A stretch of DNA of 62,339 bases from an uncultured Bacteroidota bacterium (lineage in GTDB: Bacteria; Bacteroidota; Bacteroidia; Flavobacteriales; Flavobacteriaceae), in the NCBI GenBank assembly GCA_902635895.1, contig CACPPV010000007.1, forward strand, positions 1 to 62,339. Reading direction: 5' to 3'. The notes beneath the pieces were generated by a model. It was given only the letters and a program-made list of their open reading frames with translations. It did no database searches and was not told where the DNA came from. Below are positions 20,284 to 29,841 of this stretch, piece by piece; position 1 is the first letter of the stretch, and each line of letters starts with the position of its first letter. Made by a program: the position numbers and the translations under genes.

Positions 20284-23200
20284 ATGGTTCTTTTTTTTAA
20301 AGATGAATTTAACGTAGTTTTTGCAGTTGATTCAACCAAACTATTTTCCAAAGAGGATATTAAAAAATTAGAGTGGCTTTTCAAAGCCAAAAAATTAGAA
20401 ACAAATACTATTGATTCAACTTTCATAGGTCCAAAAAAAACTATGGTTTCTCCATGGAGTACTAATGCAGTAGAAATAACTCAAAACATGGCTATTTCAG
20501 GAATTGTAAGGATTGAAAAATTTGTCTTAAAAAAATCATCAAATGGAAATCATGATCCAATGATTTTCGAAGAATATAAAGCCTTGGATCAAAATTTATT
20601 TAATATTTCCGTAAAGCCACAACCCATTTTAAAAATTGATAATATCTCAGAGTATAATGATAAAGAAGGGTTAGCTTTGAACCCTGAAGAAATTAATTAT
20701 CTTGAAGACTTATCAATTAAATTAAATAGAAAATTGACAGACAGTGAAGTTTTTGGATTTTCTCAAGTTAATTCTGAACATTGTCGACACAAGATTTTTA
20801 ATGGCAAGTTTATAATTGATGGAACTGAAAAAAAAGATTCACTTTTTAAACTCATAAAAAAAACTTCAAAACTTAATCCCAATGAAATTGTTTCGGCTTA
20901 TAAAGACAATGTAGCATTTGTAAAAGGACCAAGTGTTGAACAATTTGCTCCCACTCATGGAGATTTACCATCATTTTTTGAAAAAACAACTTTTAAGTCT
21001 GTTGTTTCTTTGAAAGCAGAAACACATAACTTTCCTACTACTGTTGAGCCATTTAACGGAGCAGCAACAGGATCTGGTGGTGAGATTAGAGACAGATTAG
21101 CCGGTGGAAAAGGATCTCTTCCTCTAGCTGGAACAGCTGTCTACATGACCTCTTATCCAAGATTTGAAAACGACAGAAAATTAATAACAAAAGAAAGAAA
21201 TTGGCTTTATCAAAGTCCAGTTGATATTTTAATCAAAGCATCTAATGGGGCTTCTGATTTTGGAAATAAATTTGGACAACCGTTAATTTCAGGTTCTGTC
21301 TTAACATTTGAACATGAAGAAAATAACAAAACTTTAGGTTTTGATAAAGTTATTATGCTTGCCGGAGGAATTGGTTATGGAAAAGATAATCAAAGTCTAA
21401 AAAGTAAACCTAAAGAAGGAGATGTAATTGTAATTCTTGGTGGAGACAACTACAGAATTGGAATGGGAGGTGCAGCTGTATCTTCAACCGAAACAGGTAA
21501 ATACAGCTCTGGTATTGAACTTAATGCAGTACAAAGATCAAATCCAGAAATGCAAAAAAGAGTAGCTAATGCTATTAGAGCCTTTGTTGAATCTGAAAAT
21601 AACTCTATTGTATCAATACATGACCATGGAGCTGGAGGGCATCTTAACTGTCTTTCTGAACTAGTTGAAGAAACGGGTGGAATCATCAACTTAGACAAGT
21701 TACCAGTTGGAGACAAAACACTGTCTTTCAAAGAAATTATTGGAAATGAATCTCAAGAAAGAATGGGATTAATTATTCCCAAAAATAAATTTTTAAAACT
21801 CAAAACTATTGCTGAGAGAGAAAAAGCACCATGTTACAAGGTTGGTATAATAAAAGAAAATGGAAAATTTATAATTAAATCTGAAAACAACAATGCATTA
21901 CCAATAGATCTATCACTGTCTGATTTTTTTGGAAGCTCTCCAACCACTGTAATGAGAGACAGTTCAGTTAAAACTAAATTTTCTGACAAGAAATATGAAA
22001 TAAAAAATTTAGAAAATTATTTAAAAGATGTATTGTCTTTGGAGTCAGTTGCATGTAAAGACTGGTTAACTAATAAAGTTGACCGATGTGTTACTGGAAA
22101 AGTTGCTAAACAACAATGTGTTGGATCACTACAACTCCCTTTAAACAATTGTGGTGTAATGGCTTTAGATTACAGTAATTTAAATGGAGTAGCTACCTCA
22201 ATTGGTCATTCACCTTTATGTTCATTAATAGATCCTGCTGCAGGTTCAAGAATTGCTATTGGTAAAGCACTAACTAATATAATATGGGCTCCATTAGAAA
22301 ATAGCCTTGAATCTGTTACTCTTTCGGCAAACTGGATGTGGCCATGCAATAATAAGGGTGAGGATGCTAGGCTTTACAAGGCTGTTCAATCTTGTTCTGA
22401 TTTTGCAATAGGACTGGGAATAAATATCCCAACGGGAAAAGATTCATTATCAATGAAACAAAAATACGTTGATAAAGAAGTTTTGTCACCTGGAACAGTA
22501 ATTATTTCATCTGCGGCTAATTGTAATGATATAACGAGCATTATTGAACCTCAATTTAAATTCAATAATGATAATATTTACTATATCAACCTGTCTGAAA
22601 ATAATTTTAATTTGGGTGGATCTGCATTTGGCCAAACTCTTGGTTTCATTGGTTCATCTACAATTGACTCAGCTGACCCAAGTTATTTCAAGAAAACTTT
22701 TAATGTTTTTCAAAAATTGATTAAATATAATTTAATAAGCTCAGGACACGATATTAGTTCTGGAGGTCTAATAACCACATTACTTGAAATGTGCTTCTCA
22801 AATAATAACATTGGGGCTGACATTGATCTTGATTTATTTAAAGAAAAAGATCTGATAAAACTATTGTTTAGTGAAAGTTTAGGTTTAGTTTTTCAAGGAA
22901 AAAAAGAAGTCGAAAATATTTTAGATGAAAATGAAATAAGTTTTATTAGAATTGGAAAGACAAAAGAATCTGGTTCTCTGACCTTGTCAAATAAGTACAA
23001 AGATTTAAATTTTAACATAGAGTATTATAGAGATTTATGGTATAAAAAATCTTTTCAGTTAGATTCGATTCAAAGTGGAAAAATTAAAGCTAAAGAACGA
23101 TTTGATAATTATAAAAAACAACCTCTAAAATATATTTTTCCAAAAAGTTTTAACGGACTAAATAAATTTAAATCAAAAAAAATAAAAGCCGCTGTAATTA

Positions 23201-23928
23201 GAGAAAAAGGAAGTAATTCTGAAAGAGAGATGGCATTTGCAATGGACTTAGCTGGTTTTCAAGTTAAAGACGTTCACATGACAGATTTAATTTCTGGAAG
23301 AGAAAGTCTTGATGATATCAATTTTATAGTTGCAGTTGGCGGATTTTCTAACTCTGATGTCTTAGGATCAGCCAAAGGTTGGGCAGGTTCATTTTTGTAT
23401 AATGAAAAAGCAAAGTCAAGTTTGATGAATTTTTACAAACGAGAAGATACTTTATCTTTAGGAGTTTGCAATGGATGTCAATTGTTTATTGAGCTTGGTC
23501 TACTTCATCCTGAACATGAAAAAAAACCAAAAATGGATCATAACGATTCCAAAAAATTCGAATGTGTCTTCACATCAGTTGAAATACAGACCAACGATTC
23601 TATAATGTTTAAAAATCTTTCAGGTTCAAAACTTGGTATTTGGTCTGCTCATGGTGAAGGAAAATTTATATTACCTTATTCAGAAAATAATTACAATATT
23701 ATCGGTAAATATGGATACAAATCCTACCCTGCCAATCCAAATGGATCTGACTACAATACTGCTATAATTAGTAGTAAAAATGGAAGACATATTGCCATGA
23801 TGCCTCACCTTGAGAGATCAACTTTTCCTTGGAATTGGCCTTACTACCCTGAAAATAGGAACGATAAAATATCTCCTTGGGTAATGGCTTTTGAAAATGC
23901 CTACAACTGGTTAAATTCTAAAGTCTAA
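20284..23928 (+). CDS. purL: Phosphoribosylformylglycinamidine synthase (large, single-chain PurL)
   Basis: PurL converts FGAR, glutamine and ATP to FGAM in step four of purine synthesis. This is the large single-chain form (1214 residues). It has an N-terminal PurS-like segment, then the ATP-binding FGAM synthase core with QVNSEHCRHKIFNGKF, LKAETHNFPTTVEPF and ATGSGGEIRD, then SIHDHGAGGHLNCLSELVEE. A C-terminal class-I glutaminase from about residue 965 carries the nucleophile in GVCNGCQLF (about 1060) and the His in MMPHLER. Its promoter spacing resembles that of purB, the other purine gene here, but no shared operator is evident. No frameshift is present in spite of several A-tracts. Confidence 0.96.
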   Translation: MVLFFKDEFNVVFAVDSTKLFSKEDIKKLEWLFKAKKLETNTIDSTFIGPKKTMVSPWSTNAVEITQNMAISGIVRIEKFVLKKSSNGNHDPMIFEEYKALDQNLFNISVKPQPILKIDNISEYNDKEGLALNPEEINYLEDLSIKLNRKLTDSEVFGFSQVNSEHCRHKIFNGKFIIDGTEKKDSLFKLIKKTSKLNPNEIVSAYKDNVAFVKGPSVEQFAPTHGDLPSFFEKTTFKSVVSLKAETHNFPTTVEPFNGAATGSGGEIRDRLAGGKGSLPLAGTAVYMTSYPRFENDRKLITKERNWLYQSPVDILIKASNGASDFGNKFGQPLISGSVLTFEHEENNKTLGFDKVIMLAGGIGYGKDNQSLKSKPKEGDVIVILGGDNYRIGMGGAAVSSTETGKYSSGIELNAVQRSNPEMQKRVANAIRAFVESENNSIVSIHDHGAGGHLNCLSELVEETGGIINLDKLPVGDKTLSFKEIIGNESQERMGLIIPKNKFLKLKTIAEREKAPCYKVGIIKENGKFIIKSENNNALPIDLSLSDFFGSSPTTVMRDSSVKTKFSDKKYEIKNLENYLKDVLSLESVACKDWLTNKVDRCVTGKVAKQQCVGSLQLPLNNCGVMALDYSNLNGVATSIGHSPLCSLIDPAAGSRIAIGKALTNIIWAPLENSLESVTLSANWMWPCNNKGEDARLYKAVQSCSDFAIGLGINIPTGKDSLSMKQKYVDKEVLSPGTVIISSAANCNDITSIIEPQFKFNNDNIYYINLSENNFNLGGSAFGQTLGFIGSSTIDSADPSYFKKTFNVFQKLIKYNLISSGHDISSGGLITTLLEMCFSNNNIGADIDLDLFKEKDLIKLLFSESLGLVFQGKKEVENILDENEISFIRIGKTKESGSLTLSNKYKDLNFNIEYYRDLWYKKSFQLDSIQSGKIKAKERFDNYKKQPLKYIFPKSFNGLNKFKSKKIKAAVIREKGSNSEREMAFAMDLAGFQVKDVHMTDLISGRESLDDINFIVAVGGFSNSDVLGSAKGWAGSFLYNEKAKSSLMNFYKREDTLSLGVCNGCQLFIELGLLHPEHEKKPKMDHNDSKKFECVFTSVEIQTNDSIMFKNLSGSKLGIWSAHGEGKFILPYSENNYNIIGKYGYKSYPANPNGSDYNTAIISSKNGRHIAMMPHLERSTFPWNWPYYPENRNDKISPWVMAFENAYNWLNSKV

Positions 23929-23938
23929 AAAAATCAAT

Positions 23939-23964
23939 AAAATACTATGCATGCATAGTATTTT
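23939..23964. promoter_or_regulatory. 26-bp perfect palindrome, probable MarR operator
   Basis: The half-site AAAATACTATGCA (23939-23951) is followed directly by its exact reverse complement. The palindrome occupies about -44 to -19 relative to the start site predicted by the -7 box at 23969-23976, so a bound dimer would block the -33 region. It stands immediately before a MarR-type regulator gene, which suggests autoregulation of the beta-oxidation operon. It can also fold as an 11-bp stem with a 4-nt loop followed by a T-rich stretch, so it may double as the purL terminator. Confidence 0.75.
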
Positions 23965-23968
23965 TTAT

Positions 23969-23976
23969 TAAATTTG
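23969..23976 (+). promoter_or_regulatory. Bacteroidota -7 box (TAAATTTG) for the marR-fad operon
   Basis: TAAATTTG matches TAnnTTTG. It ends 7 nt before the ATG at 23983, so the mRNA should have almost no leader. It overlaps the alternative TTG start at 23974, which is therefore unlikely to be used. Confidence 0.6.
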
Positions 23977-23982
23977 AGATCA

Positions 23983-24420
23983 ATGGAGAAAAAAACTATT
24001 GATCACTTAATGAGGTCCACATGGCAGGCAATTGCCAGAATGTATAATGAAGAAGCTTCAAAATACAACTCTACAATGGCAACTGGATTTGCACTATTAA
24101 GTATCGATCCAAAAAAAGGAACTCCTTCAACAGCACTCGGACCTAAAATGGGAATGGAAGCAACTAGCTTGTCTAGGACATTAAAAACATTGGAAGAAAA
24201 GAAATTGATAATTAGAAAACCAAATCCAAATGACGGAAGAAGTGTTCTAATTTACTTAACAGAAATGGGAAAAGTCAACAGAGATGCATCAAGAGTTGCT
24301 GTTTTAAAATTTAATCAAGCAATTAAAGATGAGATTGGTAATAAATCACTTGAAAATTTTTATGATACAATTGAAAAAATCAACAATTTAATTTCTAAGA
24401 AAAAAATTTTCAATTTTTAA
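23983..24420 (+). CDS. MarR family transcriptional regulator of beta-oxidation
   Basis: The protein (145 residues from ATG 23983) has the MarR winged helix-turn-helix: GTPSTALGPKMGMEATSLSRTLKTL forms the recognition helix and its support, and KKLIIRKPNPNDGRSVLIYLTEMGK is the wing with the family's D-x-R motif. It heads an operon of fatty-acid beta-oxidation genes and lies just after a 26-bp palindrome, so it is probably a repressor released by an acyl-CoA or fatty-acid ligand. Ligand identity is inference from context. Confidence 0.88.
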   Translation: MEKKTIDHLMRSTWQAIARMYNEEASKYNSTMATGFALLSIDPKKGTPSTALGPKMGMEATSLSRTLKTLEEKKLIIRKPNPNDGRSVLIYLTEMGKVNRDASRVAVLKFNQAIKDEIGNKSLENFYDTIEKINNLISKKKIFNF

Positions 24421-24439: not shown

Positions 24440-26845
24440 ATGAAAAAAAATATTAAAAGTGTTGCGGTAATTGGATCTGGAGTTATGGGATCTGGAATTG
24501 CTTGTCATTTTGCTAATATTGGAATAAATGTTCTATTACTTGACATTGTTCCTAATGAACTTAACGAAAAAGAAAAAGAGCTTGGTTTATCACTAAGTGA
24601 TAAAAAAGTTAGAAATAGAATTGTTAGCGAAATGTTTCAAAGATGTGTAAAGTCAAAACCATCCCCTCTTTATCACAAAAACTTTGCTAACAGAATTGAG
24701 CTAGGAAATTTAAGTGACGATATTGAAAAAATAAGTAAAGTAAATTGGATTATAGAAGTTGTAACAGAAAAACTAAAGATAAAACAAATCGTTTTTGAAC
24801 AAATTGAAAAACACAGATCCCCTGGAACTCTAGTAACTTCTAACACATCTGGAATTCCAATCAAACAAATGAACGAGGGAAGATCCGAGGATTTTAAACA
24901 CAATTTTGCTGTTACTCATTTTTTTAATCCTCCAAGATATCTCAAATTATTTGAAGTAATACCTGGACCTGACTGTAAGCCAGAAATTATTGATTTTCTA
25001 CACGATTTTGGTGAAAGATTTCTTGGAAAAGATTTTGTATTAGCAAAAGATACCCCAGGTTTTATAGGAAACAGAATTGGAACATTTGCTATGGTCAATA
25101 TACTTAACAACGTTGAAAAACTAGATCTAAGTATTGAAGAAATAGATAATCTCACAGGTCCAATAATTGGAAGCCCAAAATCAGCAACATTTAGAACAAG
25201 TGATGTGGTTGGACTCGATACAACAGTTAATGTTGCTACAGGAATTTATGAAAATTGTCCTAAAGACGAATTTAGAGACACATTCAAACTCCCAGAATAT
25301 ATTCACAAAATGCTAGAGAATAATTGGCTTGGATCAAAAACTGATCAAGGTTTTTACAAAAGAATTAAAGATAAAAATGGAAAGTCAACCATTTTATCAC
25401 TTGATTTAAAAACACTTGAATATTCTCCAGTTAAAAAAGTTTCTTTTGAAACTGTAGGAAAAGCTAGAAAAATCAGTAAGGTGATTGACAGATTTCCTGT
25501 TTTAATTGAAGGAAATGATAAAGCAGGAGAGTTTTACAGGTTTAATTTTGGAACAATGTTCTCATACATACAAAACAAAATTCCAGAAATTTCAGATGAA
25601 CTTTATAGAATTGATGATGCTTTAAGAGCTGGATTTGGTTGGAAAAATGGACCTTTTCAAATTTGGGACTCAATTGGAATTAAAAAAGGAGTTGAAATAA
25701 TGGAAGTTTTAGATCACAAACCTGCTCCATGGATTTCAGAAATGGTTAAAAACAATCATAATAGTTTTTATAAAATCGAAAACGGAATAATCTATTATTA
25801 CGATTTAAAATCAAAATCATATATTAAAAAACCCGGCCAGGATTCTTTAATAATTTTGAACAATATTGAAAAAAAGAATATCATATGGGAAAATAAAGAT
25901 TCAATTATCAAAGATATTGGTGACGGCATAATAAATCTTGAATTCAGAACTAAAATGAATACTCTTGGACAAGGTGTTCTAATGGGAATTAATAAATCTG
26001 TTGACTTAGCTGAAAAAAACTATAAAGGAATTGTGATTGGAAATGAAGGTTCACATTTTTCAGCAGGCGCAAATTTGGGTGCGATTTTTATGGCATCTGC
26101 GGAGCAAGAATACGATGAAATAAACTTAGCTATAAAGTTTTTTCAAGACAGTATGATGAAGTTGAGGTATTCAAGCGTTCCTGTAATAGCCGCTCCACAT
26201 GGATTAACACTTGGTGGAGGTTGCGAGGTAACTATGCATTGTGATAAAGCTGTAGTTTATAGCGAAAGTTACATAGGTTTAGTTGAAGTTGGAGCAGGTC
26301 TTATTCCTGGCGGTGGAGGTTGTAAAGAAATGGCTTTAAGAGCTTCAAAAAAGTTTAGAAAAAATGATGTTGAATTAAATGTTCTTCAAGAATATTTTCT
26401 AAATATTGGAATGGCCAAAACATCAACATCTGCTCATGAGGCCATAGATTTAGGATATTTAGAACCAAATAACGATACCATAGTTATGAACAGAAACCAT
26501 CAAATATCAATAGCAAAAAAACATGCTATTTTGATGTCAGATTATGGTTATTTACCTCCATGTAAAGAAAAAAATATCAAAGTTTTAGGTAAACAAGCTT
26601 TGGGAATGTTTATGGTTGGTAGTGATACTATGAAAGCAGGAAAATACATTTCTGATCATGACAAAAAAATAGCAAATAAAATTGCTTACGTTATTAGTGG
26701 TGGTGACTTATCACAAGCCACATTTGTTGATGAACAATACCTTTTAGATCTTGAAAGAGAAGCTTTTCTTTCACTATGTTCTGAAAGAAAGACTCTAGAG
26801 AGAATTCAACACATACTAAAAACAGGTAAACCATTAAGAAATTAA
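24440..26845 (+). CDS. 3-hydroxyacyl-CoA dehydrogenase / enoyl-CoA hydratase fusion (FadN-like)
   Basis: The bifunctional enzyme (801 residues) hydrates enoyl-CoA and oxidises the 3-hydroxyacyl-CoA with NAD. The dehydrogenase comes first: a Rossmann motif VIGSGVMGSGIACHFANIG (residues 10-28), then DTPGFIGNRIG, and a second C-terminal dehydrogenase domain to about 430. The crotonase-fold hydratase is at the C-terminal side (about 490-700), with EGSHFSAGANLGA and APHGLTLGGGCEVTMHCD lining the oxyanion hole and active site. This order is the reverse of E. coli FadB/FadJ and like B. subtilis FadN. It starts 19 nt after marR. Confidence 0.9.
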   Translation: MKKNIKSVAVIGSGVMGSGIACHFANIGINVLLLDIVPNELNEKEKELGLSLSDKKVRNRIVSEMFQRCVKSKPSPLYHKNFANRIELGNLSDDIEKISKVNWIIEVVTEKLKIKQIVFEQIEKHRSPGTLVTSNTSGIPIKQMNEGRSEDFKHNFAVTHFFNPPRYLKLFEVIPGPDCKPEIIDFLHDFGERFLGKDFVLAKDTPGFIGNRIGTFAMVNILNNVEKLDLSIEEIDNLTGPIIGSPKSATFRTSDVVGLDTTVNVATGIYENCPKDEFRDTFKLPEYIHKMLENNWLGSKTDQGFYKRIKDKNGKSTILSLDLKTLEYSPVKKVSFETVGKARKISKVIDRFPVLIEGNDKAGEFYRFNFGTMFSYIQNKIPEISDELYRIDDALRAGFGWKNGPFQIWDSIGIKKGVEIMEVLDHKPAPWISEMVKNNHNSFYKIENGIIYYYDLKSKSYIKKPGQDSLIILNNIEKKNIIWENKDSIIKDIGDGIINLEFRTKMNTLGQGVLMGINKSVDLAEKNYKGIVIGNEGSHFSAGANLGAIFMASAEQEYDEINLAIKFFQDSMMKLRYSSVPVIAAPHGLTLGGGCEVTMHCDKAVVYSESYIGLVEVGAGLIPGGGGCKEMALRASKKFRKNDVELNVLQEYFLNIGMAKTSTSAHEAIDLGYLEPNNDTIVMNRNHQISIAKKHAILMSDYGYLPPCKEKNIKVLGKQALGMFMVGSDTMKAGKYISDHDKKIANKIAYVISGGDLSQATFVDEQYLLDLEREAFLSLCSERKTLERIQHILKTGKPLRN

Positions 26846-26848
26846 ATT

Positions 26849-28033
26849 ATGAAAGACGCATATATAGTTAAAGCATACAGAACAGCTGTTGGTAAGGCTC
26901 CAAAAGGATTGTTTAAGTTTAAGAGACCTGATGAACTAGCATCAGAAACTATAAACCATATGGTCAGTGAAATTCCAGAGCTAGACAAGACTAGAATAGA
27001 TGATGTGATTGTTGGAAATGCAACTCCTGAAGCTGAACAAGGTTTAAATATCGGAAGAGTGATTTCATTAATGGGGTTAAACGTTGAGGATGTTCCTGGA
27101 GTAACAGTTAATAGATATTGTGCATCAGGATTAGAAACAATTGCAATGGCATCGGCTAAAATAAAATCTGGAATGGCAGAGTGTATCATAGCTGGTGGTG
27201 TAGAAAGCATGAGCTTTATTCCTATGGGAGGGTATAAACCAGTTCCTGATTATGGAATAGCTAAAGATGGTAAAGAAGATTATTATTGGGGAATGGGGCT
27301 TACCGCAGAACAAGTTGCTCAACAATTTAACATAAACAGAGAAGATCAAGATGAATTTGCTCTTAATTCTCATAAAAAAGCTGTTAATGCAATTGAAAAT
27401 GGAAAATTTAAGTCTCAAATAGTGCCAATTAAAGTTAATGAAACCTATCTGGATGAAAATGGAAGAAAAAAAACAAGAGAATACACTGTAGATACTGATG
27501 AAGGTCCAAGAAAAGATACTAATTTAAAAGTGCTAAATAAATTAAGACCAGTTTTTTCAATGAATGGTAGTGTCACAGCAGGAAATTCCTCTCAAATGAG
27601 CGATGGAGCTGCCTTTGTACTAATTATGAGTGAAAAAATGGTAAAAGAGTTGAATATTGAACCGATTGCTAGACTTGTAAATTATGCAGTTGCTGGAGTT
27701 CCTCCAAAAATTATGGGAATTGGTCCAGTTAAAGCTATACCTAAAGTTTTAAAACAATCTAATATGAACATTAATGACATAGACTTAATTGAACTCAATG
27801 AAGCTTTTTCTTCTCAATCCCTCGCAGTAATTAGAGAATTAAATCTAAACCAAGACATAATCAATGTAAACGGTGGAGCAATTGCTTTAGGACATCCACT
27901 AGGATGTTCAGGTGCCAAGCTTTCTGTTCAATTATTTGAGGAAATGAGAAACAGAAAATCTAAATACGGGATGGTAACAATGTGTGTTGGAACTGGACAA
28001 GGAGCTGCAGGCATATACGAACTTTTAAATTAA
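26849..28033 (+). CDS. fadA: Acetyl-CoA C-acyltransferase (beta-ketothiolase)
   Basis: The thiolase cleaves 3-ketoacyl-CoA with CoA to release acetyl-CoA, the last step of each beta-oxidation round. Both active-site cysteines and the catalytic His are present: Cys91 in VNRYCASG, His349 in ALGHPLG, and Cys379 in TMCVGTGQG. The 394-residue length is typical. It starts 3 nt after the hydroxyacyl-CoA dehydrogenase gene, and the pair presumably forms a trifunctional-like complex. The gene name follows the pathway role; biosynthetic thiolases are less likely in this operon. Confidence 0.92.
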
Positions 28034-28038
28034 AAAAT

Positions 28039-29841
28039 ATGAGTGTTGAAGAAAAAAATATCACAAGAGGAGGCGAATTTATAATCAAAGAAACAGATTG
28101 CAATAATGTGTTTACCCCTGAAGACTTTAATGAAGAACAATTAATGATGAAACAAGCTGTTCATGATTTTATTGAAAAAGAGGTTATACCACACAAGGAA
28201 AGATTTGAAAATAAAGATTACAAGTTAACTGAAGAGGTGATGAAAAAAGCAGGTGATCTTGGGTTTTTGAGTGTTGCCGTTCCAACTGAATATGGTGGTA
28301 TGGGAATGGGGTTTGTCTCAACAATGCTTGTGTGTGAAACTATTTCAGGTGCTTGTGGGTCATTATCAACTGCATTTGGAGCTCACACTGGAATTGGTAC
28401 CATGCCTATCGTTCTTTATGGTAATAAAGAACAAAATGAAAAATATGTTCCAAAACTAGCTTCTGGTGAGATGTTTGGATCTTACTGTCTAACCGAACCA
28501 ACTGCAGGCTCTGATGCAAATAGTGGAAAGACAAAAGCAGTTCTTTCAGAGGATGGCAAATACTATAAAATAACTGGTCAAAAAATGTGGATCTCTAATG
28601 CAGGTTTCGCAAAACTATTTATTGTTTTTGCAAGAATTGAAGATGATAAAAATATTACCGGATTTATTGTACCTAACGAAACAGATAATGGAATTACATT
28701 GGGAGAAGAAGAAAAGAAACTAGGAATTCATTCCTCGTCTACAAGACAAGTTTTTTTCAATGAAACAAAAGTTCCTGTAGAAAATATGCTCTCTAAAAGA
28801 GGCAATGGTTTTAAAATTGCCATGAATTCATTAAATGTTGGTAGAATTAAATTAGCTGTAGCATGCCTAGACGCTATGAAAAGAGTTAGCTCTCATGCCA
28901 TTCAATATGCTAATGAAAGAACTCAGTTTAAAACTAAAATTATTGACTTCGAGGCTATTAAAGAAAAATTAGCTCAAATGGCCACTGAAACATATGTAGG
29001 TGAGTCTGCTACTTACAGAGCCGCAAAAGATATAGAAGATCGAATTAAAATTCGACATGATAGCGGAAATAGTTTTCAAGAGGCTGAACTTAAAGGAGTT
29101 GAAGAGTATGTAATTGAATGCTCAATTTTAAAAGTTGCAGTAAGTGAAGACATGCAAAATATTGCTGATGAAGGTATTCAAATTTTTGGCGGAATGGGAT
29201 TCTCGGCTGAAACTCCTATGGAGGGTGCTTGGAGAGACTCTAGGATTGGTAGAATTTACGAAGGAACAAATGAAATAAATAGAATGCTAAGTGTTGGTAT
29301 GCTCATAAAAAAAGCGATGAAAGGTCATTTAGATATTATCACACCAGCAACAAATGTTGGAAAGGAACTTATGGAAATACCTTCATTTGAAGTTCCAGAT
29401 TTAACAGAGCTATTTTCGCAAGAAAAACTTATAATAAAAAATTTAAAGAAGGTTTTCTTAATGCTTGCAGGTGCGGGAATTCAGAAGTATGGTGAAAAAT
29501 TAGAAGAACATCAACAAATGCTTTTAAATGTTTCTGATGTATTAATAGAGGTTTACATGGCTGAATCTGCTTTACTAAGAACAGAAAAAAATGTAAAACG
29601 TTTTGGTGAAGAAAAACAAAAAAATCAAATTAGAATGACAAAATTGTATTTGTATCAAGCAGTAGATGTCATTCAATCCAAAGCAAAACAAGTAATTATT
29701 TCATCATCTGAGGGTGATGAACAAAGAGGTCTTTTAATGGGTTTGAAAAGATTCACAAAATACTACGAATTTCCAAATACGATTGAATTAAAAAATAAAA
29801 TTGCAGAAACATTAAAATCCGAAAACAAATATTGTTTTTAA
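28039..29841 (+). CDS. Acyl-CoA dehydrogenase, long form
   Basis: The flavoenzyme introduces the trans-2 double bond into acyl-CoA. The domains are the N-terminal helical part with MKQAVHDFIEKEVIPHKE, the middle beta domain with YCLTEPTAGSDANSG and GQKMWISNAGFA, and the C-terminal part with RIYEGTNEINRM, containing the catalytic-region Glu. An extra helical segment of about 150 residues follows (to residue 600), as in VLCAD-like dehydrogenases. I start at ATG 28039 (MSVEEKN), 5 nt after the thiolase stop, because the upstream extension lies inside the thiolase gene. It is the last gene of the operon. Confidence 0.92.
   Translation: MSVEEKNITRGGEFIIKETDCNNVFTPEDFNEEQLMMKQAVHDFIEKEVIPHKERFENKDYKLTEEVMKKAGDLGFLSVAVPTEYGGMGMGFVSTMLVCETISGACGSLSTAFGAHTGIGTMPIVLYGNKEQNEKYVPKLASGEMFGSYCLTEPTAGSDANSGKTKAVLSEDGKYYKITGQKMWISNAGFAKLFIVFARIEDDKNITGFIVPNETDNGITLGEEEKKLGIHSSSTRQVFFNETKVPVENMLSKRGNGFKIAMNSLNVGRIKLAVACLDAMKRVSSHAIQYANERTQFKTKIIDFEAIKEKLAQMATETYVGESATYRAAKDIEDRIKIRHDSGNSFQEAELKGVEEYVIECSILKVAVSEDMQNIADEGIQIFGGMGFSAETPMEGAWRDSRIGRIYEGTNEINRMLSVGMLIKKAMKGHLDIITPATNVGKELMEIPSFEVPDLTELFSQEKLIIKNLKKVFLMLAGAGIQKYGEKLEEHQQMLLNVSDVLIEVYMAESALLRTEKNVKRFGEEKQKNQIRMTKLYLYQAVDVIQSKAKQVIISSSEGDEQRGLLMGLKRFTKYYEFPNTIELKNKIAETLKSENKYCF

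Follow-up and report, generated by a model that had tools for sequence, protein, structure and literature searches.

How bacteria control the breakdown of fatty acids is well described for proteobacteria and Firmicutes, with FadR of Escherichia coli (GntR family), which represses fad genes and activates fabA, and FadR of Bacillus (TetR family) as the regulators of degradation. CouR, in turn, is a MarR-family autorepressor of a catabolic operon, with p-coumaroyl-CoA as its signal. Bacteroidota are major degraders in sea and soil, and our literature searches of open-licence papers found no named regulator or operator for fatty-acid breakdown in this phylum.

Here we analyze a stretch of 62,339 nucleotides (the window) from an uncultured member of the Flavobacteriaceae, in which a palindrome stands before a marR gene and a set of beta-oxidation genes. 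Like the FadR proteins of E. coli and Bacillus, the MarR protein would be a single regulator over beta-oxidation operons and, as in Bacillus, over etf genes too; unlike both, it belongs to the MarR family by Pfam and its putative operator is different. With CouR it shares the arrangement of a small winged-helix MarR protein, a palindromic candidate operator at its own promoter and a CoA-dependent catabolic operon, and the structure of CouR with p-coumaroyl-CoA (PDB 5cyv) is found among both the fold matches (Foldseek) and the profile matches of the window protein. It differs from CouR in sequence (about 20% identity) and in operator sequence, and the substrate of CouR is an aromatic acid. The promoter has the same -7 box, TAnnTTTG, as the promoter map of Flavobacterium psychrophilum (PMC9723704). 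Catabolic operons under a MarR protein that also controls its own gene are familiar, and the regulon described here is apparently new: no description of the motif, operator or regulon was found in searches of open-licence papers, and the main text of PMC9723704 contains neither "MarR" nor "palindrom" and proposes no operator or regulator.

A perfect palindrome at the marR promoter

The 26-bp palindrome AAAATACTATGCA/TGCATAGTATTTT (Table 1) is gapless, its 13-bp arms are 100% complementary, and 4 nt separate it from the -7 box. The first-pass annotation of this DNA, which had described half-sites without mismatch and the same 4-nt gap, was accurate on both points, and Pfam bears out the gene order that it had given: MarR, then hydroxyacyl-CoA dehydrogenase/hydratase, thiolase and acyl-CoA dehydrogenase. 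The start of the last gene in Table 1 is a probable ATG, picked by inference within an open reading frame that opens at 27982.

Table 1. Features at and around the dyad, in window coordinates.
Feature	Position	Strand	Basis
purL, codirectional upstream gene	20284..23928	+	ORF list, Pfam
Perfect 26-bp palindrome, putative operator of the MarR regulator	23939..23964	.	Arms, simulations, conservation before marR, etfB and TonB receptor
Conserved 18-bp dyad TACTATGCATGCATAGTA	23943..23960	.	Matrix from 30 marR loci, pattern searches
-7 promoter box TAAATTTG (TAnnTTTG) of marR	23969..23976	+	Predicted +1 at about 23981
marR, MarR-family regulator, 145 aa, winged helix	23983..24420	+	Pfam, AlphaFold2, Foldseek
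Fused 3-hydroxyacyl-CoA dehydrogenase/enoyl-CoA hydratase	24440..26845	+	ORF list, Pfam
Thiolase (acetyl-CoA acyltransferase)	26849..28033	+	ORF list, Pfam
Acyl-CoA dehydrogenase	28039..29841	+	ORF list, Pfam

Gapless perfect palindromes with arms of at least 8 bp occur only twice in the whole window. The longest arm in 60 windows simulated from its dinucleotide statistics (first-order Markov) was 12 bp, seen in one of them, and 13 bp was reached in none; the core ATGCATGCAT occurs once in the window, against 0.03 expected. Based on these simulations, the rarity of ATGCATGCAT and the conservation upstream of marR, we reject a chance origin of the palindrome.

In F. psychrophilum the sigma-A box TAnnTTTG occupies positions -12 to -5 (PMC9723704). 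Applied to the box in the window, this rule puts the predicted +1 at about 23981 and the dyad center at about -29.5, where the dyad would cover the -33 region and the spacer. With this placement the marR leader would be about 2 nt long, nearly leaderless, versus about 10 to 16 nt or more in most family relatives.

The window protein is an ordinary MarR-family member. It scores 40.1 bits against PF01047, above the curated cut-off of 24.6, and its AlphaFold2 model (pLDDT 92.4) has a winged-helix fold with helical ends and a DxR wing; the 50 Foldseek matches listed are, judging from their titles and from recall, presumably all MarR-family regulators. D84 and R86 are invariant across 37 aligned MarR sequences, among which identity to the window protein drops to 38%. 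The Pfam results hold only MarR-type and related winged-helix matches, with no GntR or TetR DNA-binding domain, and no named NCBIfam MarR equivalog is reached (best score 36.5 bits versus a cut-off of 200).

Conservation of the dyad upstream of marR

The core ATGCnnGCAT stands within 250 bp upstream of marR in all 30 family loci, 35/40 order loci and 21/24 class loci, being missing from five and three of the latter two sets, respectively. It thus precedes marR in 86 of 94 loci altogether, as opposed to 1/373 control windows of the same loci (0/114 family, 1/171 order, 0/88 class). The family loci were drawn from 159 matching genomes, the order loci are further ones picked from other families within the order, and the class loci are those left of 30 after six family loci were set aside. 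A family-trained matrix reaches 12 bits at 30/30, 29/40 and 15/24 of these marR loci, respectively; its score falls outside the family while the core persists, indicating that the flanks drift and the core stays. Within the 18-bp dyad the TGC/GCA half-site cores are fixed and the outer positions vary. Aligning the upstream regions of orthologous marR genes, one of the checks that the first-pass annotation had suggested, shows the dyad to be conserved in most loci examined. The annotation had also offered the bare core ATGCATGCAT as a means of finding the rest of the regulon. The motif does recover further sites, but this core is narrower than the real motif, and TAnTATGCnnGCATAnTA fits the relatives better.

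At five loci, four from family f11 and one from the window's family, tandem dyad-like copies lie about 27 to 29 bp apart upstream of marR, perhaps reflecting cooperative binding.

The dyad begins 10 nt past the stop codon of purL, a neighbor left unmentioned in the first-pass annotation, and is followed by a T run, an arrangement that could also be read as the intrinsic terminator of purL rather than an operator. Its RNA fold has an energy of -9.4 kcal/mol (z -3.5), purL is likewise its immediate upstream neighbor in the congener G248, and the upstream ORF is codirectional in 28 of the 29 family marR loci having one. However, the same dyad sits between the divergent genes etfB and pdhB, and the nearest upstream ORF of at least 90 codons ends more than 150 bp away in 19/29 family marR loci. 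The hairpin has an A-U-rich stem poor in G-C pairs, unlike the G+C-rich hairpin that precedes the U run of an intrinsic terminator, and it is absent from the terminators that the scan predicts. A terminator would also leave unexplained the conservation of ATGCnnGCAT, the fixed distance to the promoter and the joint absence with MarR. We consider it very unlikely that the dyad is a terminator instead of an operator, and reject termination of purL as its sole role given the etfB/pdhB sites and the conservation; in this genus the dyad might have a double role, with the hairpin and T run also terminating purL transcription. The T run is mostly absent at etfB sites, and on this ground we reject it as a part of the operator.

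Recurrence of the motif at fatty-acid genes

Three places in the source assembly (1.32 Mb, 68% complete) match TAnTATGCnnGCATAnTA without mismatch and the next four have 2 mismatches, compared with three places at up to 2 mismatches for the reversed control. All three exact sites precede fatty-acid-linked or CoA-linked gene clusters. The second has its center 58 nt upstream of the etfB start codon, with the ETF domain of the product, the electron acceptor of acyl-CoA dehydrogenases, confirmed; the neighboring gene is divergent, and we take it to be pdhB. The third stands before an MDR-type oxidoreductase gene, which comes after an enoyl-CoA hydratase gene and a further gene that presumably encodes a carboxylase. 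Genome G248, a congener, has one site at a similar reductase gene (best NCBIfam model CurA reductase, below cut-off) and another at a 4Fe-4S protein gene. A genome search for the dyad before fatty-acid genes, also suggested by the first-pass annotation, thus finds it before etfB and the MDR-type reductase, and finds it in relatives as well.

Across the family sample and the source genome, at least 33 of 92 places adjoin marR and at least 27 adjoin etfB, counts that are lower bounds since some marR and NMO genes were missed. The other neighbors include genes for TonB receptors, KAS III-like, NMO/FabK-like and MDR-type proteins, and also thioesterase, hydrolase, GDSL lipase and biotin carboxylase genes. 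Seven of the eight neighbors of outer-membrane-protein length are TonB-receptor-like, the eighth being an S9 peptidase. At least five places have no fatty-acid neighbor (at a subtilase, a peptidase M3 and an aminotransferase gene, and at L093 and L073).

When trained on nothing but the 30 marR sites, a matrix detects the dyad before etfB in 30/30 cases (the best 30 of 59 genomes with etfB) and before the TonB receptor in 22/30 (the best 30 of 46 genomes, with a query that had itself been found via the motif), as opposed to 0/60 shuffled controls, which keep base content only. An exact 24-mer is present at no fewer than 119 loci in a collection of 84,980 species. Among the 119 loci listed, 106 adjoin marR (66), etfB (33), acyl-CoA dehydrogenase (4) or pdhB (3). 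For seven of the other 13, we take the neighbors to be 2,4-dienoyl-CoA reductase (3) and acyl-CoA carboxylase beta (4) from their first residues, and at the last six the available sequence runs out within 400 bases. Of the 80 titled loci listed, 79 name Bacteroidota and one (Algicola sp.) is ambiguous; 67 of the 80 adjoin regulon genes. On viral contigs, the exact 18-mer TACTATGCATGCATAGTA occurs at 14 loci, with no homolog of 18 regulon proteins within 1.5 kb.

Taken as sequence evidence, these results indicate that the same putative DNA switch precedes fatty-acid breakdown genes in many Bacteroidota, and that the predicted regulon in relatives includes etfB and a TonB receptor, joined in a smaller number of genomes by KAS III-like and NMO/FabK-like genes, lipases and thioesterases.

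Co-occurrence of the motif with MarR

At up to one mismatch, the motif is found in 37 of 41 family genomes and its reversed control in none. All 37 motif-bearing genomes have MarR and all four motif-free genomes lack it (41/41 concordant; Fisher p 1e-5, with shared ancestry not corrected for). These four genomes are 84 to 99% complete, a profile search confirmed that they have no MarR, and three of them keep etfB. At the order level, the motif is present in 124/246 genomes versus 2 control matches, and a MarR match in 159/246, including 123 of the 124 motif-bearing genomes, one of these matches being weak (G040). This comparison is weaker than it looks because 40 of the 87 MarR-free genomes belong to family f16, with tiny genomes. 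Another 36 of the 159 MarR-bearing genomes have no motif at one mismatch, some of them because their sites differ (e.g., ATGCTTGCAT).

Such distribution patterns also speak to the idea that a regulator other than the adjacent MarR binds the dyad. Two genomes would fit it: G011 has two sites and no MarR ortholog by profile search, and G040 has a site with only weak MarR matches. It is at odds with the joint presence or absence of motif and MarR throughout the family, with the MarR match in all but one of the motif-bearing order genomes, and with the position of the core upstream of marR itself in the great majority of loci, and we regard a different binder as scarcely probable. The two sites of G011, a 99% complete genome, are near hydrolase-like genes (named by eye) and could be a relic, a target of another binder, or chance.

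Promoter spacing and possible modes of action

The distance from the dyad center to the -7 box at marR is 17 to 18 nt in 28/30 family promoters, and a TAnnTTTG box lies 14 to 20 nt from the center in 29/30. Spacing in other families is looser, mostly 7 to 22 nt, with no recognizable box within 80 nt in 8/56, and such variation is compatible with steric blocking. At etfB, the box follows at 24 to 31 nt in 29/30 promoters, and at the TonB receptor at 42 to 50 nt in 20/22. These three spacing classes are gene-specific and do not overlap, no class having a box in the range of another. The box flavor likewise goes with the gene: TTTG in 29/30 at marR, TTCG in 23/30 at etfB, and TTGC, TTGG or TTGT in 19/22 at the TonB receptor. 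Fourteen of the 22 TonB-receptor boxes match TAnnTTGY, the motif SM5 of PMC9723704, whose authors count it with those that alternative sigma factors most likely control. In the TonB-receptor promoters the promoter-side half-site is usually degenerate, reading AATTAT in 17/22.

The position of the marR dyad, at about -30, fits repression. Simple occlusion does not fit at the TonB receptor, where the dyad at about -58 is too far upstream and leaves the promoter uncovered, so activation is possible there. MarR could then be a dual regulator, repressing from about -30 and activating from about -58 and perhaps, at etfB, from about -40, for which the three exclusive spacing classes, each with its own box flavor, would speak. 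However, positions alone do not demonstrate activation, etfB is needed together with the operon so that co-repression would be expected, and eight of the 30 TonB-receptor genes have no site, several of them still with a -7-like box. We consider dual action rather unlikely.

A probable MarR switch for fatty-acid breakdown

Our preferred reading, to which we assign a probability of about 0.88, is that the adjacent MarR uses the dyad as its operator, represses its own gene and the beta-oxidation operon, and is released by a metabolite. The dyad, its position, its conservation, the regulon and the co-occurrence with MarR are computed, and from them we infer binding, repression and ligand. A MarR dimer would contact each TATGC/GCATA half-site with one of its winged helices, and the complex, centered at about -29.5 if the box is placed as in F. 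psychrophilum, would cover the -33 and spacer region and block RNA polymerase, thereby repressing marR together with the beta-oxidation genes on the same transcript. Once there are fatty acids to break down, MarR would be loosened from the DNA by a metabolite and the operon would be induced; this signal is most likely a fatty acyl-CoA, given the target genes and CoA-thioester-sensing relatives such as CouR. In the same genome, MarR would also control etfB and the MDR-type reductase. The sites found upstream of beta-oxidation and etf genes are as expected for the class of acyl-CoA-responsive fatty-acid repressors. Expression of the beta-oxidation genes of F. psychrophilum rises strongly in the presence of fish mucus and plasma (PMC9723704), a response that fits a derepressed regulon and names no regulator.

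A broader and more doubtful extension is a class-wide fatty-acid regulon of Bacteroidota under one dual MarR whose action is set by distance, repressing the beta-oxidation operon from about -30 and activating an outer-membrane TonB receptor for lipid-related uptake from about -58, where the promoter is of the TAnnTTGY type and may use another sigma factor. If true, E. coli FadR would have a convergent parallel here, built on an unrelated protein family.

Conservation, recurrence at fatty-acid genes and co-occurrence of MarR and motif support the operator and regulon proposed in the first-pass annotation, an inference that is correct as far as sequence tells and extends well beyond this operon. 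The dyad is very probably a conserved switch bound by the adjacent, putative MarR-type repressor. Moreover, the motif ties a TonB receptor of unassigned substrate to lipid metabolism, and a specific 18-bp operator, together with a candidate regulator and a target list, makes fatty-acid control in Bacteroidota directly testable.
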